64,000 nucleotides of DNA from Toxorhynchites rutilus septentrionalis. Taxonomy: Eukaryota > Arthropoda > Insecta > Diptera > Culicidae. The notes below the pieces were generated by a model. That model saw only the letters and a list, made by a program, of their open reading frames with translations, did no database searches and was not told the DNA's origin. The stretch lies in contig NC_073745.1 in the NCBI RefSeq assembly GCF_029784135.1, positions 242,629,124 through 242,693,123 on the forward strand, read 5' to 3'. Position numbers and translations under genes: made by a program. Shown piece after piece: positions 1,469 to 60,236 of this stretch (position 1 is the stretch's first letter; each line of letters begins with the position of its first letter).

Positions 1469-1830
1469 GACGTAGAACTACGTCTTTCAGGAAAGGTGCC
1501 AAATCAGAACGTTAATAACGTTAATTAATAATAACGTTAATAACTATTTTCACATCATCAAAGCAACATCGTTGAGGAGAGAGTCAAGTGGGAGTGGATT
1601 GTCATTACCAAGAATGAATATGGGGCACAGTTTCTTTCCACAAGGGCCCTTCTCAGGGCTAGAAAAGTGCTGATAGCTTTCGTCGATTCTGATTTGCATG
1701 CATTAGTCGAATCTACTGAAGTAATAAAACATTAAATAGCTACAAAGTTATTCCAAAAATTTCGATGGATTCTAAAAAGTAGAAAAAAAGTTCTACGTCG
1801 AAAACTGCGGTCGTGTCCTAGACACAGCCC
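1469..1830 (+). mobile_element. GT-family element 1, short copy
   Basis: Starts with the palindrome GACGTAGAACTACGTC followed by TTTCAGGAA. Ends with TTCTACGTCG, a GC-rich linker and a terminal stem-loop at 1809-1829 (arm GGTCGTGTC, loop CTA, arm GACACAGCC). The interior is much shorter than in copies at 13189 or 58492, so it is internally deleted. A histone-type stem-loop sits at 1645-1660. A second GT element begins 12 bases after its end. No coding capacity. Confidence 0.6.
1645..1660 (+). other. Histone-mRNA-type 3' stem-loop
   Basis: Arm GGCCCT, four-base loop TCTC, arm AGGGCT: a six-pair stem, with one G-T pair at its base, and a pyrimidine-rich four-base loop. This is the shape of the processing stem-loop of replication-dependent histone mRNAs (GGYYCT-loop-AGRRCC), with one departure at the last base. 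The same element position in GT-9 (59278-59293) keeps the structure. Function is inferred from shape only. Confidence 0.45.
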
Positions 1831-1841
1831 ATTACAATTTT

Positions 1842-3418
1842 GACGTAGGATTACGTCTTTCGGGAACATATTGGGGTACAATTTGAAAATAGAAAATCGA
1901 GCACATCGCGAAAATTGTCCAATTGTCCAAACGCTTATTGCTCAGTCATTTCATGATGGATTGATGAAATTTTTGCGTCAATCGATTTCGGCACTCCATA
2001 ACAATTTTTTTATATTGAGGAAAATAATATATGTCATGAAATTAACTATCGAACAATTGAAAAATCTCAAATCTATCCTAACGGAAATACCCACTTCTGA
2101 TTGGTCGAAATTGACGACACATGTGACGGGTCACTAACAAAGACATCAAAACCAAGCTACCTAAGAGAATTCGACATCGCAAATACATGAAAGTAGGGGG
2201 AGCTTCTGTTCCTACAGAAATATATTCCCCAACAGAGACATCTAAACCAAGCTGCCTTGGGGAATTGGGCATTGCAAATACATGAAAGTAGGGGGAACTT
2301 TTGTACCTATCGAAATGTATTCCCGAACAGAGACATCAAAATCAAGCTGTTTAATCTTCATATTCAGATAAACAAAACAGTATTAACTCGTAGTCCTAAT
2401 AGCACAAAAAAGCCATAAACCAATCTCGAGCCGATATATAAAGCCCATAGAGTTCAATCCCTAAAACAAAAAAGGGTCATAAAATACGCGAACAAATGTC
2501 CGAGTAGCTAAACAACGAAATTTAAATAGCCGCATGAGCAGAAATCGCTTTGTAACAGCATCCAATAGCTCATGGTCCAATTGTACGAACCCTTTTCCCA
2601 TTATCCTCTAAGTTAATTGTGCCAATAGCCACCGGTCAGTTGATATAAAACCGATTGTGAAATGTATAGAAGAACACTCGAAAATATACTGTCGAACTAA
2701 ACGCATCTCTCGTTATCATTTTATCTCGCAAAATACATATCTGTTGTCTCGTATTCAAACCGCTTCTCTGCGAACAGTGTCGCAAATAATTTTCATTTGT
2801 CGTGTCGAAACACAAGCTTTCTGAGGGAAATCGACATTGCAAATATGTGAAATTCGGGGGCGTTTCAATATTACAAGGAAGATGAGTGAACGATTAATTC
2901 TAGCAAATAAAATTTAAATTTGGAACTTTAATGTTGGTTGCTTCGTGAAATTTCATATCAATGACCGATCGTGTATTGTGAAAAATTTAGCACAAGTGTA
3001 AGTGTAAAATTGTATATGGCAGCAGTTGTGTTAAAAATGGCTTGATAATTGAAACGATTTATTCCAATTTTCATAAATAAAAACCAAGGTGTGTTTCCGC
3101 TCGAGAACGGGTCGTTTGGTTTAAGCTGTCTGTTTTGTTGTGTTCATTTCCACCCAAGAAAGATTATACGGCGAGAAAAATTGAAAGAGTGAAGAAATAT
3201 TAGAAAAAGTGATTTCCCATATGATAGCATAAGGTGTTGGTAGTCCAATTAAAATTCGCATTGGGGCGAATAAACACTCAAAAAGTAAAAATTATAAACT
3301 ATTTCCATTTCAAATTTGTTTTCTCTATATTAAAGTAACATGTTTTTTACTGATGAGAAAAATTGATAGCCTAACGGAATCCTACGTCAACTATGCGGTC
3401 GTGTCTCGGACACAATCC
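1842..3418 (+). mobile_element. GT-family element 2
   Basis: Starts with GACGTAGGATTACGTC then TTTCGGGAA. Ends with CCTACGTCAAC and the terminal stem-loop at 3397-3418 (arms GGTCGTGTC and GACACAATCC). It holds an array of ~95-bp units at 2125-2350 and a lone relic of the unit near 2815-2870. A TATATAAAG at about 2435 may be a decayed form of the promoter seen in GT-6. All frames are short and broken. Confidence 0.55.
2125..2350 (+). repeat. ~95-bp tandem units of the GT family
   Basis: Two and a part units built on CAGAGACATC, AAACCAAGCTGCCT, GCAAATACATGAAAG, a run of Gs and TTTTGTNCCTA. They match the larger array at 19608-20110. Confidence 0.65.
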
Positions 3419-3774
3419 TCCTGCGGCTTTTTTGTAAAGCTTTTACGATAGTTATTATTTGTAGGTTGGATGATAGTGCGTCTACAAATGATTGTTTTTT
3501 TTCCCATTTTTTTTCTTCAATATATTTTTCAAACAACAATGCCTAACAATGTGTCAATCAATAGAACAAGTATATCACTACATTAAATTTTGCATGAGTT
3601 TATAACTATTTGGATGAGTACCGTTAAGAATCATATTTCGGACACTTTGTTCTAATATTGGGTTGGGTAAAAAGAAATGTCGTATATCGTCAATATACGG
3701 CAACACTTAAACATATCTTGTGTTGTACTTATCGCATCGGGTCATACTATACGGCTATTTAAAGACGACAATTG

Positions 3775-4485
3775 GTTTGTTGGTTTGATCGATTTCGTTC
3801 TGGTGTAGTGGCTGTCGAAGATACACCCCGTAATGGTAGGCCAATCGTCGTGGAAACCGATAAAATCGTTGAAATCATCTAAGTAGACCGGCATGTGAGC
3901 ACTCGCTCGATTGGCCAGGAACTGGGTATAGACCATAAAACCGTTTGGAACCATTTGCAGAAGATTGAATTCCAAAAAAAACTGGATGTATGAGTGCCAC
4001 ACGAGTTTTGCTGTGTGTTTGATGGGATTGGAAGGGAATCATCCACTATGAGCTGCTCAACTACGGCCAGACCCTCAACTCGGTTCTCTACTGTGAGCAG
4101 CTTGACCGTTTGCAGCAGGCGATTGACCAGAAGCGGCCAGAAATGATCAACAGGAATGGTGTTGTTTTCCACCAGGACTACGCTCGGCCTCACACATCTT
4201 TGATGACCCGCCAGAAGCTACGGGAGCTCGGATGGGATGTCCTATTGCACCCACCGTATAGTCTGGACCTGGTTCCAAGTGATTATTATCTCTTCCGGTC
4301 CTTGCAAAACGCTCTTGGTGATACTAAGTTGGCCTCAAAAGAGGCTTGGGAAAACTGGCTGTCTGAGTTTTTTGCAAATAAGGAGGAGGTGTTTTAAAAG
4401 GGGGGGGGGGGGGGGGGGGTGGATAATGAAGTTGCCTTCTAAATGGCAACAAGTTTGCGAACAAAACGGCGCATATTTGACTTAA
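3775..4485 (+). pseudogene. Mariner transposase, dead
   Basis: Recognisable blocks in order are: the helix-turn-helix linker RFRSGVVAVEDTPRNGRP; DRHVSTRSIGQELGIDHKTV; then, after an internal deletion, IHYELLNYG; VVFHQDYARPHTS; a stretch ending in LDLVPSDYYLF; and a C-terminus GIMKLPSKWQQVCEQNGAY. The second and third catalytic Asp (in HQD and PSD) are 34 residues apart, typical of D34D mariners. The block with the first catalytic Asp (normally GDEKW) is gone, the N-terminus is missing, and there are in-frame stops and frameshifts. It cannot make an active enzyme. Confidence 0.85.
4400..4419 (+). repeat. Run of 20 Gs in mariner 1
   Basis: An uninterrupted G20 sits where the related element at 32289-34995 has no G run. 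It probably grew by slippage from the few Gs before the codons for IMKLP. It shifts the transposase frame. Confidence 0.9.
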
Positions 4486-9191: not shown

Positions 9192-9552
9192 TATTACCGG
9201 TATTCAAAATTCTACATCAAAACTGTCTTCGGACGACTTTTAGAACATTCAACGATGCAGAACTTGTCTGTATTTTAATTATGCTTAATGTTATTAATGT
9301 TTTCTCCCATAAATATGCCCTTTTCATTTGTTTGTCATTCTTTCTGGGACAGACATTAAAAAAAAATGTATATTTACAGTTTTTGAAAAGGCATATTTGA
9401 CTCTATACTATATGAATTTTTCGAAATTATATTATTTTTTGTGTTTGAGGTAACTACATTTGAAATCATGAGTTTTTGTGTAATAAACATCGATTACTTT
9501 GAGTAGGATTAAGATATTGACAAGACGAAACTTTATGAAAAAGTCACAGAAG

Positions 9553-9990
9553 GGTTGTGTCCGAGACACGACCGCATAGTTGACGTAGGATTTCGCTAGG
9601 CCATCTGTTGATTTTGGATATGATTGAACAATTACATTGTTAAACTCTTTGATGATGATTTGGTGGCCTTCTGAAAAGAGCCGTTTTGTTTGGTTGTTAG
9701 GTATTGTTTGTTCAGTCCACCAGTGTTTACCGTGTGATGATGACAGAAGGATGGTATACAGTCTTTGGATGGTGCGTATCAGATAAAATATACTGAAGTA
9801 GAACGAGATATGATGAAAACCACCCTCTGTGATCCTAGACAAGAGGCCTCCTGTGATATGTATGAATGGAATAAAGTAAACAAAACTCACCAATGTAATA
9901 CAAGATAATTACCAATATCGAACACAATTATCATGTTTTCTCATCAGTAAAAACATGTTACTCTAATATAGAGAAAACATATTGAAATGA
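9553..9990 (-). mobile_element. GT-family element 3, 3' part
   Basis: On the minus strand it ends with TCCTACGTCAACTATGC and the terminal stem-loop at 9553-9573 (arms GGTCGTGTC and GACACAACC, loop TCG). Its inner edge matches GT-2 (TATTAGAGTAACATGTTTT, then CTGATGAGAAAA). No GACGTAG start is found to the right, so it is 5'-truncated. A 153-codon open frame covers most of it, but it reads through non-coding landmarks of the family and looks accidental. A histone-like stem-loop lies at 9665-9682. Confidence 0.55.
9665..9682 (-). other. Degenerate histone-type 3' stem-loop
   Basis: On the minus strand: AAAACGGCTCT, loop TTTC, AGAAGGCCACCA, then CATCAAAGAG about 10 bases on. The left arm, TTTC loop, ACCA flank and purine-rich downstream AAAGAG all resemble animal histone pre-mRNA processing signals. 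The right arm has two extra bases, so pairing is imperfect. Confidence 0.45.
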
Positions 9991-11961
9991 AAAAAAATAA
10001 TTTTCTTTGAAATGGAAAAAAATAATTTTCTAAAAGTAGTCAAAATGACTTGCTTGGGGAATCTAATGTTAATTGGACCTAATTATTTCTCATCTAGATT
10101 TTTGAGAAGTTGTTATCGATGTTATAGATGAGTTGGCGCGAAAATTCTCATCCATGGTATTATTTTTGAGCAGATCATTCCATCTTTTTAACATGGTTCG
10201 CTGGAGCAATAAATTATATCTATAAAATGAGAACTTGTGAGCGACTAACATCTGAGGGATTTCTTCTAGAGAGCCTTTTTCATAAACCTACTCGTTGTCG
10301 AAAACATTCTCCCCCCACACTGATTTAGAATTTTCAAATTAAGCCAACAATAAACTTGTCGTCTATATTCACATAATAAAATCGCATAATCAAACAAAAA
10401 CGATAGTTGAATTCGAAAGAAGACCACAACGCATCGGAAGATTTATGAGCCAAACTTAATCCAACGCAATGGATTGAACGAGAGAAAGCAAAGCTAGGAG
10501 AAGTTTGATAATTTTTCATCTGATAAAACTTCGACCCCTATCACTCAATCTTCCCTAATAGAATTAGTTTCCATTTCCAGCTCAGTGCCCAGCGAAATAG
10601 TTATTGCCTCGTGGTGGGGATATAATTCATTTCTGCAGGGATCAGCGGGATACAAATAAAACTTGCCAGCGGGAAAAAATAGAGTTTTTATGGTATTTCG
10701 TTATTAGTGCAACTTTTTTGAATATCTCGGCAGTAATTCAGTGCGGATGAAGCGATTGAGATGGTGTGGCGCCAAAAAGACAGTAAAATGAATTTAGATG
10801 TAAGTTTTTGCACGAAATAAAAACATGCTTCATCCAGCTTCACATTATCAGACGAAGGAATCACTTCATTAAGAAAGCAGGAGAACATAACACTTTTGAT
10901 GCTATGAACCCGATTGAATTCGATGCCTTTTCCTCTTTCGAATAAAATTAATTCATGGTTTTGTCGGATAGTATATCTCATCATTCTGATTCCTAACAGA
11001 CACAGCAATCGGATAACTCAACTGATTGTGTTCAAAACAAACACTTTTCAAGCTAATGGTCTATCTTGAAGGCGAATATCACTATCCGAGCCTTTCCAGC
11101 GAACGGTCGTAACGTCTGACGACCTTGTCTGCTGTTTTGCGTCTAAAAGATAGAAATAAAGAGATGAATGCAAATTAGCGTTTTCATCAGAATCCATTTC
11201 ATAGCGATGTCTGTTGTGCCGAAGCGACTCGTTTCGCACGAGGGTCGTTAATGAAAAATCCATATTCAAACTGATGAACGTCAACTATGAGGAACAAACA
11301 TGATAACAGCGTGCATTATATTCATTGCTCGGAATTTTGTATGTCGAACAAAAATGAGTTAACGGTAGTTGTTTTTACTTCCGGCACTTCGGCGCAAATC
11401 GATTTTTTTCCGAAAGGCTATTATTACGCTGTGTATTGATCATTTTCCCACCCAGACCGGTGGGTCTCATTAAAACGAAACATTGTTAAAATTCCTGACA
11501 TTTAAGTGGAAATGATTGTGTGGAACGTGTCCGCAAAGCCACATTCACCGCACATGTCAGCGCTTGACGTTATCAAAGCAGATGAGCGACACGAGAAAAT
11601 TAAGCTTTTACGCCGAACAACTCAAACCATAACATGATGTTATGGCTAACATGATACCGATGTTTGCGAAACACCACCCACAATGATGTGGAATCTGCTC
11701 ATCTAGGTGGGGAGTGCGGTGGGAGACAGAAATTTGCCAATGCTGATAGGAATTGTAATAAGCCGCGTTGCGTTCCCTTGACGGGTGTGAATTCCAGCGA
11801 GGTGTTGATCAGATAATTATGACACGGAACACGAATCACGGATGCGGCATTAGCATTGATCCACGGGGAGTTGCCTCGTCCAAAGATGTTTATATTTTTA
11901 ATCAGGGATCAAAGTGATACAGCTCGTCGGGGTATCAAAAGCTGTTAAGAAAATTAATTTA
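9991..11961. other. No gene recognised
   Basis: About 2 kb without shared repeats. Open frames of up to 106 codons on the minus strand (10688-11008, 11048-11284) have no recognisable motif. A short direct repeat of AAAAAAATAATTTTCT lies at about 9988-10032. Confidence 0.4.
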
Positions 11962-13175: not shown

Positions 13176-13188
13176 CGCAATTACTTTT

Positions 13189-14235
13189 GACGTAGAACTA
13201 CGTCTTTCAGGAAGGGTGCCAAATCAGGAAACAGGTCACGTTTTGATGAAATAAAGTTAACGTTAATAACTATTTTCACTGTGAACGAATTCTCATGATT
13301 TGCATACCAATCGAATCGGAAATTCTCTAAGATTTGTTTGATATGTTATACATCACAATTCGCTGATCTCTAAATGGTTTAAATTCATGAAAACTGGTAA
13401 CTTCCTTTTTTCCATACATTTGTTCTGCCGATTGGTGTGCTAACACTACCCGTATTTCGAATGCTTAAAACTCGAACATTTCTTAACAGATCGGAAAGAT
13501 GTTTGCATCAATTGATAGGAAATATTTCTACGCGTCTATCAAAATTAATAAAATATAATTTTTCATGAGATGAACAATTGAATAACTGTAAAATGTCAAG
13601 CGTTATCTAAACACCCTAACTGCCAAGTTTTGATTGACCCGATTTACGGTTTTCCCAACACAGACTTCAAAATCAATTTACCTGTGGAAATCCGCTTTGC
13701 AAATATACATGCAAGTCGGGGGTATTTTTGTTCCCACCGAGCTGTGTTTCCTTAACACGGACTTCAAAATCAATGTACCTAGGGGAATCCACTTTGCAAA
13801 TACATGCAAGTTGGGGGTATTTTTTGGTGTTGAGTATTTTAGTACTCGTTTGTCGTTGTGCAGACCGGAATATGTTTCCCTAAAACGTACTTTCAAACTG
13901 AGAAGCCTGGGAAAATCATCATTTCAGATATTAGAGGTGAATGAACTTTCGCGGTTCGAGAACTACGTAAACATGAGATGTGCAATAATTTCGGAGGGAA
14001 ATGTAAAATACAATGATCATTTCACCATTTTTCCGTTCACATATTTTAGTAGTCCTAGGCATCATATCAAGCGTAAAAGGACGTTCATCAAATTTATTTG
14101 TAACAAAGAACATAATCTATTACAAAAATTTCGATGCATTCTGAAATAATATTCGAAGTGGTAACCAAGTGGATTGCATATTATAATTGCGTAGTTCTAC
14201 GTCGAAAATATGCGGTCGTGTCCTAGATACAACCC
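13189..14235 (+). mobile_element. GT-family element 4, full structure
   Basis: Starts GACGTAGAACTACGTC then TTTCAGGAAGGGTGCC. Ends CGTAGTTCTACGTCG, a short linker and a stem-loop at 14214-14234 (arm GGTCGTGTC, loop CTA, arm GATACAACC), followed by a T-rich run. In between are a block (TCGAACATTTCT, GGAAAGATGTTTGC) shared with GT-5, two and a part ~95-bp units, and a distal block (GCGGTTCGAGAACTACGTA, CCTAGGCATCATA) shared with GT-7. At 13324-13335 it preserves the empty site of the MITE found in GT-9. A 171-codon frame crosses the array, but it only translates the repeats. Confidence 0.65.
13640..13890 (+). repeat. ~95-bp tandem units of the GT family
   Basis: Two full units and part of a third, marked by ACACAGACTTCAAAATCAAT, CTTTGCAAATACATGCAAG and GTATTTTTGTTCCC. 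Same unit as in GT-2 and GT-5. Confidence 0.65.
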
Positions 14236-14324
14236 CTTACATTTTTTTGGTTTTTTTTTATAGTTTACATGGTCTCGGGACTGTATTTTTTAAATATTTT
14301 TTTCTGAGAAAGATTCTTGAGATT

Positions 14325-16651: not shown

Positions 16652-17848
<1,197 letters not shown>

Positions 17849-18199
17849 TAACTAAATAAAATTTTTGAGCTGTCGCCACGATGTCTAGCCAAATCTTTTA
17901 ATCTTGAAATTGTGTTCATCGTGTCGTTGCTGAGCCGATTTCGAAGTTTTGTTTTTGTTTTGATTATATTCAGAAAAAAATCGCTAGATGGGTGCCGATG
18001 GGAGCGTTAGAAACAAGGCCCCGAAAATGCGAGCGAACTGTTATTTTCAGGCATTTAATGTATGTCCACCAATCCTGTACATGTTCGTTTTCTGAATCTG
18101 TGATTTCCTTCCGGAGCAACGTGACTTTCTGGGTGTGGAATTTCTTCTCCAGTTCTTGTAAATTCCCATCGTATAACCCTGAAAACGCTTATACTACAA

Positions 18200-18755: not shown

Positions 18756-18769
18756 AAAAGCTTTTGAAT

Positions 18770-19270: not shown

Positions 19271-19326
19271 ATTAAACAAAATAACTGCAGATTGTTTGTA
19301 ACTACTTATTACACGTGCAATATTTC

Positions 19327-20125
19327 GACGTGGGACTACGTCTAACCGGAGTATATGGGGGCTAAAATAAAAAACCTAAACACAGAACATGCAGGAAAAA
19401 ATGAAAGATTCCGAATGCTTATAACTCGAACATTTCTCACTGGATCGGAAAGATGTTTGCGTCAATTGATGGGGACTATTTCTACGCTTCTATCGCAATT
19501 AATAAAATGTTATTTTTTATTAGATAAACAATTGAATAACTGTAAAATGTTAAGCGTTATCTAAACGCCCTAACTGCCTCATTTTGATTGGCCCGATCTA
19601 CGGTTTCCCTAACACAGCCATCAAAACCAATCAGCCTTGGGGAAATCGGCATTGTAAATACATGAAAGTATGAGGGCTTTTGTTCTCACCGACATGTGTT
19701 CCCTAACACAGACTTCAAAACCAAGCTGCGTTGGAGAGATCGCCATTGCAAATACATGAAAGTCAGGGGTTAATTTTGTTCCGACTGAAATGTGTTTCCC
19801 TAACACAGACTTCAAATCCAAGGAGCGTGGGGAAATTGGCATTGCGAATACATGAAAGTCGGAGGTATTTTTGTTCCCACTGAAATGTTTTTCTTCAATA
19901 CAGACTTTAGAACCAAGGTGCCTAAGGGAATTGGCATTGCAAATTCATGCAAGTCGGGACATTTTTGTTCCGACTGAAATGTGTTTGCCTAACACAGACT
20001 TCAAATCCAAGATGTCTGGGGAAATCGGTTCAGCAAATAAATGCAAACTACGAGTACTTTTGTACTCACTTGCCTTTGTGTAAACTAGAATATGTTTCCT
20101 TAAAACGGTCTTCCGAGGGCACTTC
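19327..20125 (+). mobile_element. GT-family element 5, 5' part with long array
   Basis: Starts GACGTGGGACTACGTC. It then shares TTATAACTCGAACATTTCT, GGATCGGAAAGATG and AACGCCCTAACTGCC with GT-4, and runs into the longest array of ~95-bp units in the window. No terminal stem-loop is seen before the next GT element starts at 20143, so the 3' end is lost. Confidence 0.55.
19608..20110 (+). repeat. Array of five ~95-bp units
   Basis: The landmark CATTGCAAATACATGAAAG recurs near 19649, 19742, 19838, 19934 and, decayed, near 20030. Each unit also has ACACAGACTTCAAAACCAA, TTGGGGAAATCGG and a GTTCCCACTGAAATGTG block. Units are contiguous without unique spacers, so this is a minisatellite and not a CRISPR-like array. 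Confidence 0.8.
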
Positions 20126-20142
20126 TACACTCGCATGTTTTT

Positions 20143-21819
20143 GACGTAGGACTACGTCTTTCATTTCTATACCGGGGTGTAAAACCAAAGTTTCGAAAAC
20201 GAAAGCGTTACGCCGGAGACCGAGATTTTGAGTGTTAATAGCTCCTAAACAACTGAACGAAATGGTATGATAAACACTTCATTCGAAAGATAAAATGTCT
20301 ACGCGTTCTATACTTGTTACTTTCTGATCCAAAAACTTGTTTCAATAGTCCTAAATTTGCTTTCAAAATAGGCTATTGAAATCACCAATCGGTATATAAG
20401 CGAGCGCCGCTCGGAAATCCACTCAGTTCTAATTGAACAGCGATTGGAGCATGTTGTCGCTGTTGTGGTGAAGCTCTTCATTTATCATGAAAGCGCGGAT
20501 GAACGGTGTCACCAAGAGCCTGTTTGTGCACCTTAGGTCAGAAGGGAATCCATCAGGAGGAGAGTGATGCCACAAATGGTTCCCCGGGAAGATCTCGAAG
20601 CAGCCGCTACACACACATACACACATACACGCGCGGAATTCTTTCCGTTTGGATGCCATTCAGCATCGAGAAAGATCCGGAAAATAATCTGCCAGTTCCT
20701 CTGGGAATTTAAAAATACATTCATGTGAAAGAGTTTATTTGAATGTTTTCTATCCATGTAACACTGTGACCAAATATGTTTCAATCAAGTGCTATTAACA
20801 GATGGTTATCGAGTTAGCATAAACCACTGGTGGGCTTCCAGTATCGAGGAAAATGTGGAAATATCCAATCGTTACTGAAAATAATCTGCCAGTTCCTCTG
20901 GGAATTTAAAATTACATTCATGTGAAAGAGTTTATTTGAATGTTTTCTATCCATGTAACACTGTGACCAAATACATTTGGTTTTGTGATTTTTCAATCAA
21001 TCGCAATTAACAGGATAGGTTCTGAAGATTATTCTTCCCCATCAGTAGGATATTTCCGTATCCAATATTGTATGCGCCCGCAATCGATTATTGCTCAGTC
21101 GCCGAAAGTTCCGAGCTCAGAGAGTTCATTTCCCTCTAGTTTGCCTTCCAAATTTCTATCGTAAACCACACCTTCTCTCGATTCAATCACACGCACAAAA
21201 AGCATACTTAAGCGATATTCTGGTGGTGAGACGCATTCATTTTTCGTGAGGACATCGACAAGACAACATCATCGCTGAGGGTGCTGGACGGCGAAGGATC
21301 GAGATCTGCCTTGAAACGCAAGCAGTTTGTTTGAAACTGTGAGGGAGCACAGAGATGCCGATCCTTCAGGAGAAGAGAAGGTGACCATCGAAGCAGCCGC
21401 TACACATACATATACACGCACGGATTTTTTTCCGTTTGGATGCCGTTCAGCATCGAGAAAGATCCGGAAAATAATCTGCAAGTTCCTCTAGGAATTTAAA
21501 AATACATTCATGTGAAAGAGTTTATTTTAATGTTTTCTATCCATGTAACACTGTGACCAAATACATTTGGTTTTGTGATTTTTCAATCAATCGCAATTAA
21601 CAGGATAACTTCTGAAGATTATTCTTCCCCATCAGTAGGATATTTCCGTATCCAATATTGGATGCATAAAACCTTGTGCCTCCAACGTAACGCTCTCGTT
21701 TTTGAAGTTCTCCAAATATTCATTCATTTAGAATGAATTCAGATTCAACTTCAAACAAATGATCTCTAAATCAACGATAGTCCTACGTCACCTTTGCGGT
21801 TATACCATAGATATAACCC
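20143..21819 (+). mobile_element. GT-family element 6, promoter-bearing copy
   Basis: Starts GACGTAGGACTACGTC then TTTCATTTCTATACCGGGG. Ends TAGTCCTACGTCACC and a terminal stem-loop at 21798-21818 (arms GGTTATA and TATAACC). The start and end hold exact inverted copies of GACGTAGGACTA. Unlike the array-type GT copies, it carries a TATA/initiator promoter (20385-20427) and a segment present three times (20642-20775, 20877-21079, 21425-21662; landmark CCAGTTCCTCTGGGAATTT). Open frames are short and overlap on both strands, so I assign no protein. Confidence 0.55.
20385..20427 (+). promoter_or_regulatory. RNA polymerase II core promoter: CCAAT, TATA, initiator
   Basis: CCAATCGG (20382-20389), TATATAAG (20393-20400) and the arthropod initiator TCAGT (20423-20427). 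From the first T of the TATA box to the initiator A is about 32 bases, the canonical distance. The spacing, and the GC-rich stretch between the boxes, resemble insect histone-gene promoters. What it transcribes is unclear: the first ATG after it (near 20488) opens only a short frame. Confidence 0.5.
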
Positions 21820-21829
21820 ACTTTCTGTT

Positions 21830-22440
21830 TTTTGCACTCCGAAAAGTGTTTTCCTAACACGAATTACAAAAGCGGGTACGAACACAACGCTTTGGCTCGG
21901 TTATCCATTATTGCATTTGAGGATATGCCTTCATATCTTGTGCTCACTGAATTTCTACACATACCATTTGATGATTAGGCAAAATGATGTTAACAATTTG
22001 CTGCGATAACGCCTTTTGATTAAGCAATATGCGTTCGACGTACATGTCAAAATCGAAACTGATTGTCTGAAGTTCATCAAATCAAGCAAATTCGCGGTTC
22101 GAGAAATACGTACACTTGAGAGATGCAAACTTCAGAAGGAAACGTAAAATAAAATAATCGTTTGATAATTCTTCCGTTCACATATTTTGTCCTAGGCATC
22201 ATACAAAACGTAAAAGGACTGTCATTAAATGTACTTGTAACGAAGGACATAATCTATCACAATGCATGAATTGACCTTATAAGGAATAACACAATCTTTT
22301 TACCCACAAAGCAAATATATTGAATTCAATGGAATTCGGGAATTGTTTCATTCAATTAAAAATTTAATCAATACAAACAAATGATTGCTACGCTAAGGTA
22401 GTCCCACGTTAACCTTGCGGTTATATCGTAGATATAACCC
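21830..22440 (+). mobile_element. GT-family element 7, 3' part
   Basis: Shares CGCGGTTCGAGAAATACGTA, CGTTCACATATTTTGTCCTAG and CATAATCTATCACAA with GT-4 and ends in the best terminal stem-loop of the family at 22419-22439: arm GGTTATATC, loop GTA, arm GATATAACC, nine Watson-Crick pairs. The GACGTAG start is missing. Confidence 0.5.
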
Positions 22441-24073
22441 ACCCATTTTTTTAAATAAATATCGTTTGTCTTCACCTTTTCTATCAACTCTCACCCGCCA
22501 AATAGGAATTTCTCAGAACGACTCTCTTTTTGTGAGTCATAAATCAAACATATGATCCAAATATTGTTGATTTATTTTTTCAAATTGTTTGCCAATAAAT
22601 AAGAAAAATGACTTATTTAACATCCAAATTTACATTTTATTTTTACGCAAAATCTGAAACACACCTGCGCAGTGTTAGAAATGATAAAACTCAAGTGCGC
22701 AGAATTAGGTACACATCATATATTTTCCAAAATATATTTATTTTAAATTGTTTTCTGAAGCATTGTTCACGGTTTTTATTTTCAATGTTACTACTAATGA
22801 CTGCATTAACTGTTTTGTGATATGGTACATATATTTTAGTTAAAGAATGACTTAAGCTTTGAAAAGTCTCAACTGCGCAGAATATGGTGAAGCTACGGTG
22901 TATAGAAAATATTTTTTCAAAACATGAAAAAAACATAACATTTTATCTCATTTATTTTATGTTACAATGTACGAATACCTTAAAACAATTTTCGTTTAAA
23001 AGGAAAGGCTCTAGTTGTGACTGTTTTCAAGGTTTCACAAGAATTTAATATCAACACAAAGATAAGTCTTATTTGAATTTTATTTTGAATTGAATAATTG
23101 ATTCAAGATGTTAAATTACATTTGAAATAATAACAGAATTGGTCCGATTCGTGATTGAATCGTGAAGTTTCACAAAAACTCTTTGAGAACATATTTTGAT
23201 ATCAGAGAAAATACCAAAAGCTTTGACAAAATAACGACAAAAATAGCCTGCTTGTATGGCATTTCTCACTGATCCGTTTGCGAGTAGCATTCGCATTGTT
23301 GATGAACTGAAGACCCCGAAAACTAGTGAATATGGCCGGTCAGAATTTAGAAATGATGTTTTTATGGATGGCTAAGTTTCAGGCCACCCATTCGCATCCA
23401 ATGTGGTAGCCTCCAACAAATAGAAGAAAAAATGGTTTCGAGTCACAAAACACAGTCATCAACTCAATTAGTAAGAATTTGATTCATTTCAGAAATTCAT
23501 TTAAGTCCTTGTGTTCACGTTCGCGTCCTTGTGAACACGTTGAGTCCAGAATTTTTCTTGCTACGCTTTTCATTCAGTCCGCATTGAGAGCATTTTCACA
23601 ATATCAGTGTCGGTCCCCGTTCCCAAGGATATTTATTGTACAGGAAGAAAATTATCCGAAATCCGACTATATCGTACAACTTCCGTAAACAAATCATGTT
23701 TATTTTTATTTCCTCATTTTGCTACTGTCATACCCAGTGATCAACGTTTTTCTAATGAATAGCTCAACGTCAGTCCCTAGTGACCGACACGGGGCTCAAC
23801 GTGTTAAACCTCTTTTAGATGTGTATGATCGAGAACAATTTAAAATGATTATTATCGTAACCGTGTATCGCCCAATAAATTGTCATCGATTAATTTTGCT
23901 ATGTTTGTTATGCCTTCCAGTTCATTTAAATATGTTGCACACCAATGACACAAACGAACAGAGTACTATGAATATATCATATTATTACTTATTCAGGACA
24001 TCTCTATGAATTTTCCCGTTAGCTTAAATATAACACCAACTCGATCGACTGTCAATGAAATTCGAATGCAGGA
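22441..24073. other. No gene recognised
   Basis: AT-rich. The motif TGCGCAGAATTAG or a close form appears at about 22698 and 22874, but I cannot build an element from it. Frames of up to 96 codons (23719-24009) lack known motifs. Confidence 0.4.
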
Positions 24074-39522: not shown

Positions 39523-40700
39523 CAGTGCAAAATGGTTCAGGAGATGCATTTAAGTGGAAATTACCATTTAGAGCTCGACAGTTATTCTCTAGACAAAAAC
39601 TGTCTTCGACAAAGTTGTTACTCATGATAGAGCGCTCACTTTTATGTTGTCAAAAAAAGGGTGACCAAAATTTTAGATGAAATAAAAAATCTAACTTTTT
39701 TATCTTTATAGATAGAGGCAAACATAGTTCGACAATGTTGTAGCTCCAATTATTTGAGACATCTTAGTAGAACAAAGTTTGTCTCTATCTCTTGAAATAG
39801 CCGATATAGCGCTTTTTTTCTAAGTTACGTTAGGGTCACCATTAAAAACCCTGTTTTTTTGCTTTATCATTTATGTTTCAAATTTTACATGCAAACTGTC
39901 TTCGAAAAACTTTCAGAGCTTACTAATACAAACATTTTTCGATGCAGAACTTGTCAATATCTCAACTTTACTCAATGTTATTGATATTTCTTCCCAAAAA
40001 ACATGGTCTTTTTATTTGTTTGTCATTCTTTTTGGGGCAAACGTAAACGAAGTTAATTGGCGGCATTTGAAAGAGCACATTTCACTCTACATGATGTGTG
40101 ATTTTCGAAACTATGTTATTTTTGTGTTTAAGTAAATTAACATTGAAATCATGAGTTTTTGGGGACAAAACCATCAATAACTTTGAGTAGGATTAAGATA
40201 TAGACAAGTTCTGCATCGCAAAATGTTGGTATTGATAAGCTCTAAAAGCCATACGAAGACATGTAGAATTTATTTGATATAGAATTTGAAATATAAAACT
40301 TAAAGCAGAAAAAACACGTGTTTTTTTCATGGTCACCCTAATGCAACTTAGAAAAAAGCGTTAAATCGATTATTTTAAAAGATAGAAAAAAGGTTTGTTC
40401 TGCAAAGTTGTTTAAAATAACTGGGGCCACAACATTGTTGAACTATGAAAAAGTCTTTCGAAGACAGTTTTCATGTAAAATTTGAAATATAAAAGTTATA
40501 GCAAAAAAACAGTTTTTTTCATGGTGACCATAACGTAACTTAGAAAAAAGGCGCTATATCGGTTATTTCAAGAGATAGAGTAAACGAGCGCTCTATCATG
40601 AGTAACAACTTTGTCTAAGACAGTTTTTGTCTAGAGAATAAATGTCAAGCTCTAAATAATAATTTCCACTTAAATGCATCTCCTGGACCATTGTGCAGTG
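39523..40700. mobile_element. R4 foldback element, complete, 1.18 kb
   Basis: Left end CAGTGCAAAATGGTTCAGG and right end, reverse complemented, CACTGCACAATGGTCCAGG; both continue GATGCATTTAAGTGGAAATT. The two halves are imperfect inverted copies around a centre near 40010-40150: AACTGTCTTCGACAAAGTTG against CAACTTTGTCTAAGACAGTT; GATGCAGAACTTGTCAATAT against AGACAAGTTCTGCATC. The right half also carries an internal duplication (GGTCACCCTAATGCAACTTA near 40331 and GGTGACCATAACGTAACTTA near 40521). No open frame of note and no clear target duplication. Transcribed, it would form a long hairpin RNA. Confidence 0.75.
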
Positions 40701-43864: not shown

Positions 43865-43990
43865 TGACGTAGGACTACGACTTTGATTTCTACATGGGGG
43901 GGGGGTCACTCTACGAAAAATGTAACGAAAATTAAAAGTTTTCAAATGAATATTACGCAGAATCCTACTTACGATATATCTCATAATATA
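43865..43990 (+). mobile_element. GT-family element 8, 5' fragment
   Basis: Starts GACGTAGGACTACGAC then TTTGATTTCTACATGG, like GT-6, and includes G10 at 43896-43905 where GT-6 has GGGG. No array or terminal stem-loop follows. Confidence 0.5.
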
Positions 43991-51035: not shown

Positions 51036-51702
51036 ATTGTTTCGCGACAAGGCGAACGAATTTAAGAGTGTAAAAGTCGATTTCGATCGAATTGTAAAAT
51101 CCGATCACTCATTTGCATATCTGAATATTGAGTTCTACAAATCGGTGAAGAGTAATAAAAACATCCATGAATAAAGGAAGCAATATGGCTGTGTTTCAAA
51201 CTTAGATTACCGATGTGAATACTCCTCGATTGAATGACAACGATAAAATAACGCGATTCCAAACAGGCCGATTAATCAGCTCCATTGAAGTTAGCTGGCG
51301 TATCACTGTTTTCCAATTTATGAACGAGACCAAGCTGTTATAAACTAAGCCATGTTGAAAATCACATGCACGTATTTTCTAACAAGGAGACAGCAATAAA
51401 TATTGATTTTCTATATTTCATTTTTTCTACTTTACGACAAACTTATATTACTTTTTTCAGTTGACGTTTATCTTTTAAGAGATCAAACATGTCAGTTACG
51501 TTAATGAAATACACCATGAAACATCATATAACCTTTCGTTCAAATCATTAAATTGGTTTTTTTATCGGTTACATTCGATTTATTTTAAAGATCGTTAAAA
51601 TATTCAAACACACTTACAATATATTAGTGTGTTTTATTCAACACCCAAAATATTCACTAGAAATAATTTATTTGGCAGAACAACGTTTGCCTGGTCAGCT
51701 AG

Positions 51703-53274
51703 TCTTATATATAAAATTCTCATGTCACGATGTTCGTGGTCAAACTCCTCCGAAACGGATCGACCGATTTTAATGATATTATACTCAAAAAACTTGGTAG
51801 GCATGAGAATAGGTCGTAAACTTTATATGATACCGCTAGGATACCTATTACTTTATATTTGATACCGATTAGGGTGGTCCCATGCAAATAAAATCTGAAT
51901 TAATTTGTTTTCGTATTTTTTTTTTGCATAAATTTGGCTTGAAAAAAAAAATTATAACCATATATAACCAATTTTCACCCTCATATCCTTTTTTTTATCG
52001 TGATATATGTATTTTTATATAAACGATTCCAAATAATTGATTCGTCGTTCGTTTTTTAAACAGGACGAATTTATCTACATTACTTAATGTCAGATGGCAC
52101 TTCGTCCTCTTTATCGAATTTCACCCTACACATACGCAAGTAACCTCAATTCGACAAAAACTAGGAATATCGCCGGCGAGCTGGAAGCCTTTTTGGATGA
52201 GCACAATGAATTATTGAAATTATTCTCATCACACCCATGCTCGGAATGCAAAATAACAGTCACGCTATTGTCGTCAATCCTGAAAAAAAAAACGATTGAA
52301 GAGCACATGTATAGATCCAATGCACCACAGTTACTTTAATTATTAGGACCATCATTACTCATTTTGAATTAATATTTTTTAATATTATGTGGTTGGAGGA
52401 GACGAAACAAACAAAAGAGTGCCCTCGATGGATTCTTATGTGTGTCGTTTGATAAATTGGCGCAGTCAGGACAACGTCATTCTAGGATGTCTTGAGCTGT
52501 GTCAATAATCCATGGTCAACATATTCGCAAAGGTAGAGAGCGAACGACTGCGATTCATATGAGACAATCAACAGAAGCGGTTCGAGGAATGATAGCGAGA
52601 CGCTATCATGAGTAACACCTACACAGCCTTTGTTCAAACGACAGCACGTGTGTTCAAACAAAATAAATGCAGTCTTTAATGGGCTCTATTACAAAATTAC
52701 AGGCATTTCGTCCAACAAGTTGCTGGATGTATACAAGATTTATAGAAGAATCGTTAAGTTCGGACTGTTTTCTAAGTATTTAAACTACATCGAGTAATGA
52801 TTTTCATCCAAATTTAAGCAATTTAAAATTATTTTCGTGTCTGCTAATCAGATTACAGATTAAATTGCTCCACGAATACGGATTACTTATTTTAAAGTTT
52901 ATTTTGCGCCGAGGCAAGGTTGCTACATTTCATAGCACGAATGATCAGATTTCTGAATGCAAAAGACGAATCCTGAGATCCGATCGATCCGGTCCATTTC
53001 TCTGTACATCATATATCCCATCTCCATCTCCACATCACACTCAGGTTCGGGAAGTTCCCACGGTCCAATGCAATACACGGTCAAATCTTCACGTATCTGC
53101 TCGATATCCACGTGGAATCTATCCTTCATCGATCATAATCAATTCATTTTATCAATCGTTGAAACATTTGAACACACATGTATTGCAATACATTAGTTAT
53201 TTTTTTTATTCAACAGTCAAAATATTCACTAGAAGTAATTTATATGGCAGAACAACGTTTGCCGGGTCAGCTAG
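51703..53274 (+). mobile_element. Helitron C, tandem to Helitron B
   Basis: Starts TCTTATATATAAAATTCTCA directly after the CTAG of B and ends GGCAGAACAACGTTTGCC, GGGTCAGCTAG (53274), followed by T and the rest of R5. 1572 bp. It shares the family opening (CATGTCACGATGTTCG; GCATGAGAATAGGTCGTAAA) but has a different internal deletion pattern from B and lacks its SINEs. Carries an N-terminal Rep relic. Confidence 0.87.
52094..52339 (+). pseudogene. Helitron Rep N-terminal relic
   Basis: LYRISPYTYASNLNSTKTRN, IAGELEAFLDEHNELLKLFS, CKITVTLLSSILKK and EEHMYRSNAPQ. This corresponds to the block before and including GEHxxRYNAP of Helitron proteins. It breaks off there by deletion. More decayed pieces follow to about 52700 (for example a THLRD-like stretch with stops). 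Confidence 0.7.
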
Positions 53275-53763
53275 TATAACTATAAAATTAATATCACAAT
53301 TGCTTCTTTAGAGTAATCCCTTGGTTTCCCTATCATTTCATATGAGAACTACATTCATAATCGGCGGAATTATGACAACACTACTTATTATCGTTTGTGT
53401 TTAACGTTTCCTTAGCGTGAGCACGTAGAATTTACCCGTTCATAAATTTTTAAATTTCTCCCGTGTTCCATCACTTCTCATCATCGTTAACAGTTTACTG
53501 TGATCGCTCGGTAAGTGTTTCGCTGTTGACTATAAAATATAATCAAGTGTAATGTAATTTTCGTTCAAAAAATTACAAAATAAAGTGTCCGAAATTTGAA
53601 TTCAATCTGTCCGAAATTTGATTGCTTCATTTGAAAAGCATTTTATTCGATGATTTTTTTATGTTTTCAATCAAATAGGTACCAAAGTAGAAAGCTTAAA
53701 AGCATATTGAACTAATTTATTAAAAATATCAACCAAATAATACCTTTGCATCAAGTTTAGATC

Positions 53764-54358: not shown

Positions 54359-56501
54359 TCTTGTATATATAAATCTCGTGTCACGATGTTCGTGATCGAA
54401 CTTCTCCGAAACGGCTCGAACGATTTTCGTGAAATTATGCACAAAAAACTTGGTAGGCATGAGAATAGGACGTAAACTATATATGATACCGCTAGGGTAG
54501 CGATTACCATATGTTTAATACCGATTAGGGTGGCTCTATGCAGAAATTTTTTTTTGATTTTTATTTCTATTTTCTTCTTATATTTGACATAAAATTAAAT
54601 ATAACCTCACAGGTTATACCCCATATCCTATTTTTATTCACGACTTTAGTATTTTGGTATAATATTAATAATATTCAAAAAATCGACCCGTAGTTTGTTT
54701 TTCAAAGAGAGCGAATTTATTAACGTTGTAAAATGACAGATGGCGCTAAGTTCACTTCATTGAACGCATTCATCCTCACATGCGCCAATAACCTTCGGCT
54801 AAAGTCATGCATATTGCCAGCGAGCTGGAAAACTTTTTCAATAAACATAATGAATTATTGAAATTCTTCATATCATACATGCTCGGTTTGCAAGGTGACG
54901 ATCACCTTATTTTCATCAATTCTAATATAACACTGACTGGAGAACACATGTATACATCCAATGCGTATGTCGTTGAATACATTGCCGGAGTCATGGTAGG
55001 CGACTGCTCAGTGACGCGAGAAACTGTGATTCGAAGAAGAAACAACAATCTGGAGTTCATCGTTGACACCCACCGTTCAAACTCTCCATCTTCTTCTTCA
55101 ATAGTACTAATGTTTCTAATGTTCCTAACGTTCACCATCTCAACGTAGAATGAATTGCGAACGATATAGAGGTAGAAAGCAAACGACTGCGATTCTAAAC
55201 AATCAGAAGCGGTGTGAGGAAAAATACACTCACTTGCCAGACGCTATCATGAGCAACGCCAACGCAGTCTTTGATATTGCCAGGTCTAAACACATGTATT
55301 GTCATGATATTACAAAACGTGTGTTCAAACAAACAAAAAATGAATGAAATGTGGAATGAGATTCATTAAAACGTTACATATATTCGGTTCCACACCTGAA
55401 TTTATTCGGCTGGATGGCAATATTACAAAAAATTAGGATTACCTCATATGCACATTTTTAATTCGGATAATCGACAAAATACGCCCTGAGGAAATCGATA
55501 GTGTAATTTACTCAAAAATTTCAGTCATTGAGCTTCGTGTTCCATTTATGTGAAGCGTAAATTATTATTAATTTTCGAGTGAAATAAACACGCTTCTAAA
55601 ACAAAGAAAATTAAATGAAATATGGCTCTATTGTGTGTTCTGTGTAGCAGAATAATACATTATCTGCAGGTATCTTGAACGAGAATAGCCTCTGATAATT
55701 ATTTTATATTCTGAATGATATTTTGGTTGAAATGCAAGAAGATCAATAGATAAATAGTTGAGTTAGTGTCAGGACTATGTCTACTAAGTATTGAAACAAC
55801 ATCGAATAAAAATTTTCATTCAAATTTCAACAACTTGAAATTGCTTCCAGGTAAGTTCAGGTGATTGTTCGATAATGTTACCCCAAACATGGTTCATGAC
55901 CGTGCGGTAATCTAAAACTTTTATAGCCTTGCATGGCAGATGGAAAATGTATAATGCATTTTCTTGAAGATTTCACCAACGACACGACCGCAACCTTAGA
56001 TGGATGTCCCATATATCAACGAGTAAAAACTGATAAATACAGACAATCATTCATGAAAATTAACAACGCGGACATTAACATGGAAAATCGTTCGGCAGTG
56101 CCATATTCGCCTCAGCTGAGCAAAACATTCAATGCTTATATTAATGTTGAGTCCTGTAATTCGACGAAGAGCAACAAATATATTTGCAACAACGAAATTT
56201 ATATTGATATTCTTCATTTAATTTGTCTACTTTACGACAGCAATATATATACAGTTCAGATTCGTTAATGAAATACATCGGGAATGGAATACAAAGAATG
56301 GTTTGTGTTTTTTTAATCGTCATCGACGTGGCGCTCTATTCCTCGGTATTTCAAACACAAGAGTAACGATCGTTTCACGTGTATGTAGATCGTTAAAACG
56401 TTTAAATACATTTACAATACATTGGTTATTATTTTTTTAACAACCTACATATTCACTAGAAATAATTTTTATGGCAAAACAACGTTTGCCGGGTCAGCTA
56501 G
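54359..56501 (+). mobile_element. Helitron D, largest Rep remnant
   Basis: Starts TCTTGTATATATAAATCTCG after A and ends with the hairpin GGCAAA-ACAACG-TTTGCC and GGGTCAGCTAG (56501) before T. 2143 bp. It keeps the longest series of Rep blocks in the window, including an HUH-type box, but no helicase. A SINE-2 tail fragment lies at 55088-55147. Confidence 0.88.
54781..56265 (+). pseudogene. Helitron Rep/HUH protein, decayed
   Basis: Rep starts rolling-circle transposition by nicking with HUH-Tyr chemistry. Blocks in order: IASELENFFNKHNELLKFF and TGEHMYTSNAYVVEYIAGVM (54810-55000); VIRRRNNNLEFIVDTHRS (to 55081); KYTHLPDAIMSNANA (near 55225); KKLGLPHMHIF near 55431, with the HUH pair as H-M-H; a remnant of EEIDSVI; ATLDGCPIYQR; and ENRSAVPYSPQLSKTFNAY with INVESCNSTKSNKYIC (56086-56195), matching NRWVVPYSPLL-type and NVEYCNSVKSIKYI-type blocks. 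The catalytic Tyr region and Pif1-type helicase are not found. Several frame changes and stops; inactive. Confidence 0.85.
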
Positions 56502-57039
56502 TAGTTTTATGTAAATGATCGTCTTGCAAATATACAGATAACTAGCTGACCCGGCAAACGTTGTAGTGCCATATAAATTATTTCTAGTGAATATTTTGGG
56601 TGTTAAATGAAACATATATAATGTGTTTAAATGTTTTAACCATCTATAAAATTAATCGAATGTTTCTAACAAAACAGAACGAATTAAAAGATTTGAACGA
56701 AAATGTGTGTAATGTTTTTTGATTCAATGTATTTCGTTAATGTATATACTGATATGTTAGATCTCTTAAAAATTGAACGTAGGGTCAAAAAAATGAATAT
56801 ATTTTTGTCGTAAGACAGAAAAATTAAATGAAGAAAATCAATATCCATTTCGTTCGATTGTTGTCTCGGAGGAAAATACGCGCTTGCCGTTTTCAAGATG
56901 GACGGTTAGATTTAAACCTGTTCATTAAATAGGAACAACGAAGCGTTAGACAACTTCAATGGAGCTGATGTACCTGCCTATTTTGTAGCGCAATTTTTCG
57001 TCATTTTCATTCATTAGTGAATACTCATCAGTATTCTTA

Positions 57040-58160: not shown

Positions 58161-58491
58161 TCTGAATTGAGAAATATTGTATTCGACTACAAAAACAAGC
58201 TGAAAACTGTACTTTAGCATCTAAGGGCTACCATAAATCCTTTTCTACACGTTATTTTTCTATAGCTGTACAAAACAAATAGAAAATTTTGAAGAAAAAA
58301 TCATGGAAAAGTTTTTGTTAGGAAAACTTTTTTTCCTTAAATATGCATAAGTTGCGATGTATGGAAGAGTTGTAGGGCATATATTTATCTACCATTTATC
58401 TGCCATTTCATCGAAATCTGAGATGACCATTTTGAGAAAATCAACTTTTAGTTTTTGAAATCGATGTTCTTCAGTGTTTCAAAAATATTTT
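58161..58491. other. No gene recognised
   Basis: AT-rich; no shared repeat or frame. Confidence 0.4.
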
Positions 58492-58628
58492 GACGTAGAA
58501 CAACGTCTTTCAGGAAGGGTGCCAAATCAGAAGACCTGTTTTTGTGAAATAAAGTTAACGTTAATAACTATTTTCACAGAGAACAAATTCTGATACTTTG
58601 AATACCAATGGAATCGGAAATTCTCTAA

Positions 58629-58945
58629 GGGTGGGTTTAGACTAGTGATATATTCATGTGAAGTAATATGATGAGATTTATAAAAATCGCATCAACCGTT
58701 TACACTAGTGTGAACTGATATAATGAATATATCCATATTGTTGGTGAATTTATTCACCTGAAGTAGAACTGCATCCAACTTTAGTGATTTCTCACCGGTG
58801 AGAAATTCATAAGCATTTACATATGCTGAATTTATTCAAGTTGTATATACCTCGAATAAGTGTATCATATTTATTCTCACCCGTTTACACCTATTTTCAC
58901 GTGAATAAATCCATCTATAGCTATATCCCTAATGTAAACCCGCCA
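58629..58945. mobile_element. Harbinger-type MITE, 317 bp, with known empty site
   Basis: Ends GGGTGGGTTTAGACTAG and, on the minus strand, TGGCGGGTTTACATTAG; duplicated target TAA (58626-58628 and 58946-58948). GT-4 has the uninterrupted CTCTAAGATTTGTTTGATAT at the matching place (13324-13343), proving the insertion and its three-base target. The G-rich ends and TAA target fit PIF/Harbinger. Confidence 0.82.
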
Positions 58946-59277
58946 TAAGATTCGTTTGATATACTATACAGTAAAATCCACAAATGCCTACGCAGTTTAA
59001 TTTATTGAAAACTGTAAGCATTTTCATTTTTCCATACATTTGTTCTGCCGATTTGTGTGCATTCCCGAACAGAGCTGTCAATAACGAGCAACTAATACAT
59101 TCGTTTCTGCCCGTTTTCAACCTATTTGGTAGAAATCAGCCATCCGCGATTTGAAGCCCCACCACTTTTCGTTCGGTGGTCATCGAAGCAACATGGTTGC
59201 CGCAGAGCGTCGAGCGGGAGAGAATTGTTTTCTTGTCGGGTGACGGAGGAGTATGGAATAGAGTTTCTTTCCACAAG

Positions 59278-59293
59278 GGCTCTATTCAGGGCT
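59278..59293 (+). other. Histone-mRNA-type 3' stem-loop
   Basis: Arm GGCTCT, loop ATTC, arm AGGGCT; six pairs, two of them G-T. It lies in the same context (TTTCTTTCCACAAG before, AGA after) as the one in GT-1, and the base difference between the two copies keeps the stem paired. Confidence 0.4.
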
Positions 59294-60236
59294 AGAGGCG
59301 GAAACCAAAAATAGAATAGAAGGAAAACACAGATGCGAGTGAGCTAGCATAACACAACGAGAATTTTGGAATATAGATATACACTTCATTTATTTATATA
59401 AATGTATATTTCATGAAAGTATGCTTTCAAATTCAAGCAGGGTAACCTTACTGTTGCATGTTGCGTGGTTCGATCACATCTCAAGCGGAATATGTGAGCA
59501 AAAGGGCTCATAGTTTGTGACCGATATCTTAGTGGGAAGGAGAAAGTCTGATGCGAGTTGAATCGAATAAACGAGAAGTGCTGATACCTTTCGCCTCTAC
59601 TCGACTCTTTCGAGTCTACTGAAGTAGTAAAAAATTAAATAGCTAAAAAGATATTACAAACAAAATTTCTCATTCTAAAATAATATCCGAAGTAATAAAC
59701 AAGTGGATTGAATAATATAATTCCGTAGTTCTACGTCGAAAACTGCGGTCGTGTTCTAGATACAACCCATTATAATTTTTTTAAGTATTTTTTTCTGAAA
59801 ATTAAATTATTTTCCTAAAACTCTTTCGTAGACCTCTTTTTTGTAGGACATACCTTTTTCGAGAAAATTTTTTTATAAAAAAAAATGATCAAAAATATTT
59901 AGCCCTTTCCATAGTCTAGATTAGTGGTGGCCAAACTTTTAGGGAACTACGGGCGACTAATTGTTCAAATGTTAGGCTGCGGTCTACCAACGTTGACTGT
60001 ATCAAAAAATCATTAGTAAATGAATTTAGTACTAGACAATAAAACAAAGTTTGAGCTAGTACTGGGCGATCTTGCATCGATATTCAGAAGATCGATTTTT
60101 TCCTCTCCGACTTCCGATTTTTTGGATCGATTCTCCAAAACATCGCATAAATCTATCTTTTCTTTTCGATATTTTTGATTTTTTTGATCATAGAAATCAT
60201 TTTGTAAATTTGTTTTTCAGTGAACATTGATTTTAA

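Follow-up and report, generated by a model that had tools for sequence, protein, structure and literature searches.

Helentrons and their short non-autonomous derivatives, the HINEs, are the closest described systems to the repeats considered here (Thomas, Vadnagara and Pritham 2014, PMC4067079). According to the available portions of that paper, a palindromic 5′ subterminal inverted repeat (subTIR) lies near the 5′ end and a 3′ subTIR lies ahead of a 3′ palindrome. The elements are bounded by T-runs, insert at TT or T-rich targets without changing the target, derive by deletion from a parent with Rep, helicase, and endonuclease domains, and carry tandem repeats in some copies. HINE subTIRs are 12–15 bp long and lie 2–4 nt from the 5′ end and about 38–60 bp from the 3′ end. 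Culex has Helentron/HINE members with palindromic subTIRs (PMC4067079). The same features recur in repeats of Toxorhynchites rutilus septentrionalis, which we examined in a 64,000-nucleotide stretch of NC_073745.1 (G000:C2:242629124-242693123; hereafter the window) and in the 902.6-Mb genome around it. Seven hairpin ends in the window are the 3′ ends of Helentrons and of short, HINE/DINE-1-like non-autonomous derivatives. The species and the terminal letters differ from those of the published elements, the Culex members being compared by description only.

DINE-1 elements of 12 Drosophila genomes likewise have a 3′ stem-loop, with stems of 7–11 nt, a few nucleotides after the 3′ subTIR (Yang and Barbash 2008, PMC2374699). 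Their stem sequence varies among species while pairing is kept, from which compensatory change was inferred in 2008, and the stem-loop was proposed to be a terminator of rolling-circle replication. However, the DINE-1 subTIRs are described as non-palindromic (PMC4067079), and the DINE-1 stem contrast lies between species, whereas here it lies between lineages in one genome. Elements of the Helitron2 group share asymmetric terminal inverted repeats (ATIRs) and a hairpin at both ends, and compensatory mutations are reported between the related Helitron-1N1_CQu and Helitron-1N2_CQu (Bao and Jurka 2013, PMC3627910; we take CQu to stand for Culex quinquefasciatus). In the parts of that paper available to us, though, those changes are described for ATIR and 5′-hairpin features, and Helitron2 proteins are described elsewhere as having no endonuclease (PMC4067079). 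Pairing of the 5′ and 3′ ATIRs was proposed to set the replication end point (PMC3627910), and fungal Helitron2 elements have similar end features (PMC5148889). Helraiser also has a hairpin near its 3′ end, but it has TC...CTAG ends, inserts at AT, and is described without subTIRs (Grabundzija et al. 2016, PMC4778049). When that hairpin is deleted, transposition falls while truncation and read-through become more frequent; swapping the stem but not the loop leaves about 90% activity, so stem sequence matters little there. A change of the Helraiser loop, together with one closing pair, acts like hairpin deletion (PMC4778049), whereas the loops here differ between lineages.

A preliminary description of the window had reported seven stem-loop ends (1809, 3397, 9553, 14214, 21798, 22419, and 59747), each just after an inverted GACGTAG block, together with near-palindromic starts. 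All seven stem-loops are found where it placed them and are real ends; the 9553 end, whose hairpin runs 9573→9553, is a minus-strand end, and the other six are plus-strand ends. They belong to the following elements, where R16 is one of three protein lineages of coding parents (R16, R18, and R20) treated below.

1465–1841, plus strand: HINE of subfamily 1a, 377 bp, homologous to the copies at 13185 and 58488 from TTTT into the T-run and bearing subTIRs; it comprises a T-run, 5′ subTIR 1469–1484 (GACGTAGAACTACGTC), 3′ subTIR, hairpin 1809–1829, and a tail to the T-run at 1838–1841.
1838–3431, plus strand: HINE of subfamily 1b, beginning in the T-run that ends the 1465–1841 copy; 5′ subTIR 1842–1857 (GACGTAGGATTACGTC), 95-bp central tandem repeats at 2136–2349, hairpin 3397–3417, 3′ end of the R16 type. 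The matching GGAT subTIR variant suggests that its start and end form one element.
9541–10004, minus strand: 3′ part of a subfamily 1b element, hairpin 9573→9553, recognized by inverted matches of 78 bp (87%) to 3365–3442 and of 81 columns to 3288–3368; its 5′ start was not located, and the upper coordinate marks the reach of homology only.
13185–14246, plus strand: HINE of subfamily 1a, 1,062 bp; 5′ subTIR 13189–13204, hairpin 14214–14234.
19323–22452, plus strand: outer HINE of subfamily 2c, interrupted by the nested element below, with an uninterrupted relative in locus L004; 5′ subTIR 19327–19342 (GACGTGGGACTACGTC), 95-bp tandem repeats at 19603–20063, fully paired hairpin 22419–22439.
20139–21833, plus strand: nested HINE of subfamily 2a, with an empty site in L004; 5′ subTIR 20143–20158, hairpin 21798–21818.
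58488–59779, plus strand: HINE of subfamily 1a, 1,292 bp; 5′ subTIR 58492–58507, hairpin 59747–59767.

Run against the window with a cutoff of E ≤ 1, a profile built from the ends recovers these seven hairpin ends without adding an eighth; whatever else it matches there is either a 5′ start or the antisense strand of the 1809 or 14214 end. The inverted block precedes all seven hairpins as YCTACGTC, the 22419 copy having two changes (CCCACGTT), and the starts of the seven elements compared are palindromic at 12–14 of 16 positions. The near-palindromic start is the 5′ subTIR, and the inverted GACGTAG block is the 3′ subTIR. In a self-comparison, homology among copies starts at the TTTT before GACGTAGNNCTACGTC (1465, 13185, and 58488) and stops in, or a few bases past, the T-run about 12 nt after the hairpin (1841, 14246, and 59779), with one pair reaching 14259/59794. 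GACGTAGNNCTACGTC follows the 5′ T-run, and the matching block lies about 40–55 bp from the 3′ end. The hairpin ends 6–10 nt ahead of the T-run, and the element extends about 12–15 nt beyond the hairpin up to that run, which corrects the earlier end positions. A palindrome near the 3′ terminus, as in HINEs, is present throughout, though it is imperfect in six of the seven window copies and weak in subfamily 1a. Matching variant letters (AAC, GGAT, GTGGGAC, or GGAC) are carried by the 5′ and 3′ subTIRs of seven elements, six in the window and one parent, and the rare GTGGGAC variant stands at both ends of 19323–22452. When 5′ and 3′ subTIRs are re-paired, 12 of 5,040 arrangements reach the observed total, which equals the number of swaps within like subfamilies.

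Insertion was examined at the boundaries. Copies of the R18 lineage on different chromosomes part right after the T-run, being alike at 199 of 200 bases and then without match. R16 copies on different chromosomes are 98.6% identical over 1,255 columns up to L085:1251 and part in the T-run after the hairpin. All ten full-length 2a copies, chosen by a pattern that included the T-run before the start, have 4–8 T after the 3′ end. These copies start with TTTTGACG, end with CTGTTTT(T), and sit in T-runs; they show none of the 5′ TC, 3′ CTRR, and insertion between A and T of a canonical Helitron1. Target duplications, a search for which had been recommended, are absent beyond the T-runs at three paralogous empty sites: that of 20139–21833 in L004, and those of two other copies at window positions 40056–40225 and at L003:349-586. 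The elements thus have the T-rich target without target-site duplication of HINEs and not the duplicated target of miniature inverted-repeat transposable elements (MITEs). Joined flanks span an empty site in one of six cases for window elements (20139–21833) and in two of ten for other copies (J7 and J8); for the remainder there is no empty site in the sequence fetched, the genome at large not being searched for them.

The repeat is very common. Exact 5′ starts number 17,533 genome-wide (reversed control 0), the two 3′ blocks have 9,358 and 3,789 copies (controls 0), and a 24-mer of the subfamily 1a end, with two positions open to two letters, has 1,385 copies (reversed control 0). The exact 5′ start has no match in viral contigs or in the contigs of other genomes searched, the Rep protein used as a pattern has no match in viral contigs, and among 144 stretches matched by the Rep alignment none encodes a relative.

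A coding parent, the other item to be sought, was found. A search of the genome for Helitron_like_N returned at least 132 matches, among them an R18 copy on chromosome C2 with a 1,564-aa open reading frame (ORF) containing Helitron_like_N, PIF1, and Exo_endo_phos. The 21798-type 3′ end lies 500 bp downstream of this ORF, and upstream lies the same 5′ start as at window position 20139. The full R18 parent, about 12.5 kb (C2, about 320563411–320575906), therefore has both ends of the window's 20139–21833 element. That element matches the parent at 87.8% over 647 columns in its 5′ part and at 82.9% over 123 columns at its 3′ end, with the middle missing, and it holds no ORF of 150 aa, the one window element for which a non-coding deletion derivative is established in this way. 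Judged by these matches, it is an internally deleted relative of the 12.5-kb autonomous Helentron, and it sits within the older element 19323–22452. PF14214, PF05970, and PF03372 occur in one ORF both in the 1,564-aa protein (R18) and in a 1,674-aa protein (R20), each scanned against Pfam as two halves. H375/H377 and Y549/Y553 are invariant in nine of nine aligned sequences. We take these to be the HUH and tyrosine motifs. The third lineage, R16, shows endonuclease homology, and the copies seen here have broken frames. Termini are shared with non-autonomous copies at both ends for R18 and at the 3′ end only for R16 and R20. Two R18 parents on different chromosomes are nearly identical (100% at the Rep locus over 3,498 bp; 199/200 in the last 200 bp), which suggests recent movement; the comparison with the twin on C3 covers the 3′ boundary only, its 5′ start not being in the 201 bp fetched.

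The three protein lineages each carry their own hairpin. The R16 hairpin reads GGTCGTGTC TCA GACACAACC, which is the type of 3397 and 9553 save one loop letter (hairpin 9573→9553 reads GGTCGTGTC TCG GACACAACC), and the R20 hairpin reads GGTTATGTC CCC GACATTACC. A search for the endonuclease domain listed 41 matches, which give 19 distinct places at identity ≥50%; 18 were fetched, and one 31-aa match was left out. A hairpin lies downstream on the same strand at 16 of the 18: seven of R18 type (one degenerate), two of R20, and seven of R16, three of the last adjoining an endonuclease remnant of only 48 aa. One of the remaining two places has no hairpin in the locus and the other an opposite-strand end only; both are R18-like by protein. 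The protein alone assigns all 16 hairpin-bearing places to the lineage of their own hairpin, with identities of 71–100% to the own-lineage reference versus 45–65% to the other two (pieces compared). Weaker endonuclease matches (25–38%) were left out of this comparison and may be retrotransposon endonucleases. By piece, the three lineages are mostly 60–71% alike (range 55–88%). They have a nearly identical 3′ subTIR block and different hairpins; near-identical subTIRs in diverged families are also mentioned in PMC4067079.

Shared ends, coding elements with the window end types 1b and 2a, and T-run insertion without target duplication make it highly probable that these are Helentrons, rolling-circle transposons of the Helitron2 branch whose protein has an endonuclease at its C terminus, together with HINEs derived from them. 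The undescribed class of element that had been proposed is ruled out by the coding parent and the literature: Helentrons are a known kind. Four points weigh on the other side. Coding parents came to light for neither subfamily 1a nor subfamily 2c. The role of the hairpin as a terminator would be carried over from Helraiser, a Helitron1 element. The subfamily 1a hairpin folds weakly, though the 24-mer of its end has 1,385 copies. The coding lineages have fixed mismatches: C·A at pair 4 in R16, T·T at pair 4 in R20, and C·A at pair 8 in R18. Because of these mismatches and the weak subfamily 1a fold, full pairing is not required.

The folding of five of the seven ends was compared with that of shuffled sequences as single DNA strands. 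Among first-set hairpins, 1809 is matched by 14 of 200 shuffles and 9553 by 25 of 200, and 14214, of subfamily 1a, folds at −0.1 kcal/mol, with 140 of 200 shuffles folding equally well; in the second set, 21798 is matched by 4 of 200 and 22419 by none. First-set hairpins thus fold little better than shuffles, and second-set hairpins fold better. The two arm sets previously distinguished do exist, with G-C/A-T switches at pairs 5 and 7, but their arms pair imperfectly. At the window ends, pair 5 is G-C in one set and A-T in the other, and pair 7 is G-C in three and G·T in two of the five first-set ends and A-T in the second set. C·A occupies pair 4 in all five first-set ends and pair 8 in the second-set 21798 end, and only 22419 is fully paired.

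The preliminary description had also taken pairing to be conserved while the stem changed, which it read as suggesting selection on the structure. We compared 69 hairpins (23 distinct): 7 from the window, 39 fetched by means of the upstream block, the search fixing no more of the stem than its initial GG, and 23 from other loci, eight of these fetched with the stem itself specified. The 39 comprise 19 2-type places, selected from the first 100 listed so that variant spacers would be represented, and the first 20 of 100 listed 1b places. Hairpins first found in the endonuclease-locus survey are left out of the pair counts. Over the 23 distinct hairpins and nine pairs, 89.4% of 207 cells pair, with pairing missing at pair 4 in 11 of 23 hairpins and at pair 8 in 5 of 23. 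Two stem pairs do change on both sides between lineages, but these are only two of nine, representing about two events. A structured 3′ end is common to many copies, but significance is lost once an ancestral hairpin is granted.

An alternative, which we regard as possible though not the likelier account, is that the stem differences are founder differences of two or three lineages, the matched changes having arisen by chance or by arm-copying without selection for pairing. Template switching in a quasi-palindrome would be the arm-copying variant; the founder alternative as a whole rivals the covariation claim, not the Helentron identity. Double-sided change is confined to pairs 5 and 7, both via transitions. 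The number of double-change pairs (two) and the pair types are reached by 470 and 500 of 500 shuffles, respectively. Column swaps that grant the ancestral hairpin of the three protein lineages reach the observed pairing in 48/96, 12/72, or 48/576 arrangements, depending on the reference lineage (0.08–0.5), and restricted swaps for the double-change count give 0.17 to 1.0; paired cells were used in the former because the double-change count is insensitive to some swaps. Against a founder origin, when columns are shuffled without restriction the observed pairing is reached at 0.0001 and the pair of double changes at 0.028. None of 500 shuffles (mean 0.215) and no slid version attains the covariation score of 0.292, and the slid versions pair at no more than 40.4% versus 89.4%, although these controls do not remove relatedness and fit to structure. 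The hairpin is also retained in all three protein lineages, despite the divergence given above. Matched change is therefore present, but covariation in this genome is thin and the genome alone gives no proof of selection.

The lineage mismatches fall at pair 4 in two lineages, with different letters, and at pair 8 in the third. We offer as a speculation, and an improbable one, that each lineage's one mismatched pair, and not only the pairing, is selected, hairpin and protein together making up a recognition code specific to the lineage. The mismatch might, for example, make a cruciform less apt to form in duplex DNA, or it might make the hairpin directional.

It is very unlikely that the hairpin acts in RNA, as the 3′ end of a retroelement, a transcript terminator, or a processing signal. 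The parent does have a retrotransposon-like endonuclease domain (PF14529 is titled endonuclease-reverse transcriptase), and a hairpin followed by a T-run resembles a terminator. However, the window has no Rfam match at gathering thresholds, the Pfam matches of the parent ORF include no retroelement domain apart from the endonuclease, and the boundaries, T-run targets, and Rep/helicase are all consistent with transposition of DNA by a rolling circle. Given a rolling-circle parent, and given that the 3′ hairpin of Helraiser works experimentally as a terminator of transposition (PMC4778049), the structure more likely forms in single-stranded DNA than in RNA. It is less credible still that these are MITEs, moved by cut-and-paste and bounded by terminal inverted repeats: the elements are short and abundant with palindromic inverted repeats, and DINE-1 was once filed as such (PMC2374699), but one of the repeats is subterminal, no target is duplicated beyond the T-runs at the three empty sites, and the parent ORF, whose Pfam matches include no DDE domain, encodes Rep/helicase/endonuclease; this parent contradicts a MITE origin for subfamily 2a.

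The Helentron elements fit the Helraiser/ATIR model, from which a mechanism may be proposed. By analogy with the Helitron2 model in the literature and with the experiments on Helraiser, nicking at the 5′ end would be done by the HUH/Y2 Rep, and the helicase would then peel off one strand. Near the 3′ end, the 3′ subTIR would pair with the 5′ subTIR, the hairpin would form in single-stranded DNA, and the helicase would stall. The strand would be cut within the T-run and would circularize, and the circle would enter another T-run. If the hairpin needs shape over stem sequence, stems would drift in matched steps, a drift that only part of the stem shows.

Other sequences were noted along the way. 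A 95-bp tandem repeat is common to the inner parts of several HINEs (2136–2349, 13649–13824, and 19603–20063) and resembles the central repeats known for HINEs. Two ORFs have no Pfam match: one of 171 aa (13634–14149, plus strand) inside 13185–14246 and one of 153 aa (9432–9893, minus strand) overlapping 9541–10004. A 5′ start at 43866–43881 (GACGTAGGACTACGAC) has no recognized 3′ end in the window. Two R20-type 3′ ends lie in opposite orientation downstream of one R20 parent (L042:2637-2689, plus; L042:4644-4696, minus). The R18 Rep (L018:859-3498) shares 77–86% identity with one Armigeres subalbatus protein and several from Aedes albopictus; the remaining named mosquito proteins in the best 17, two of Toxorhynchites included, are 64–70% identical to it. 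Horizontal transfer is a possible explanation of this pattern. Repeats at 17776–17863, 51630–51717, 53202–53289, and 56429–56516 contain AACGTTTGCC(G/T)GGTCAGCTAGT and have a CTAG-type end, which presumably resembles that of canonical Helitron1; Helitron1-like Rep genes, judged by the look of the motif, occur in the genome (L009 and L010). At 25422–26438 (minus strand), a 338-aa ORF with DDE_3 and helix-turn-helix domains is a Tc1/mariner-like transposase. A satellite of 143-bp units at 739–1336 adjoins the first element and is related to 24125–24312 and 36369–36681.

The literature searched contained no paper on Helentrons in Toxorhynchites and none on Helitron hairpin covariation under that word. 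The matched stem changes repeat a published observation, and the find is an ordinary one; as far as these searches reach, its novelty is limited to the species. A very abundant repeat is now assigned to a known kind of transposon, with coding parents, and the presence in a single genome of three lineages, each with a distinct hairpin, would make them useful material on how Helentrons recognize the 3′ hairpin and end there.

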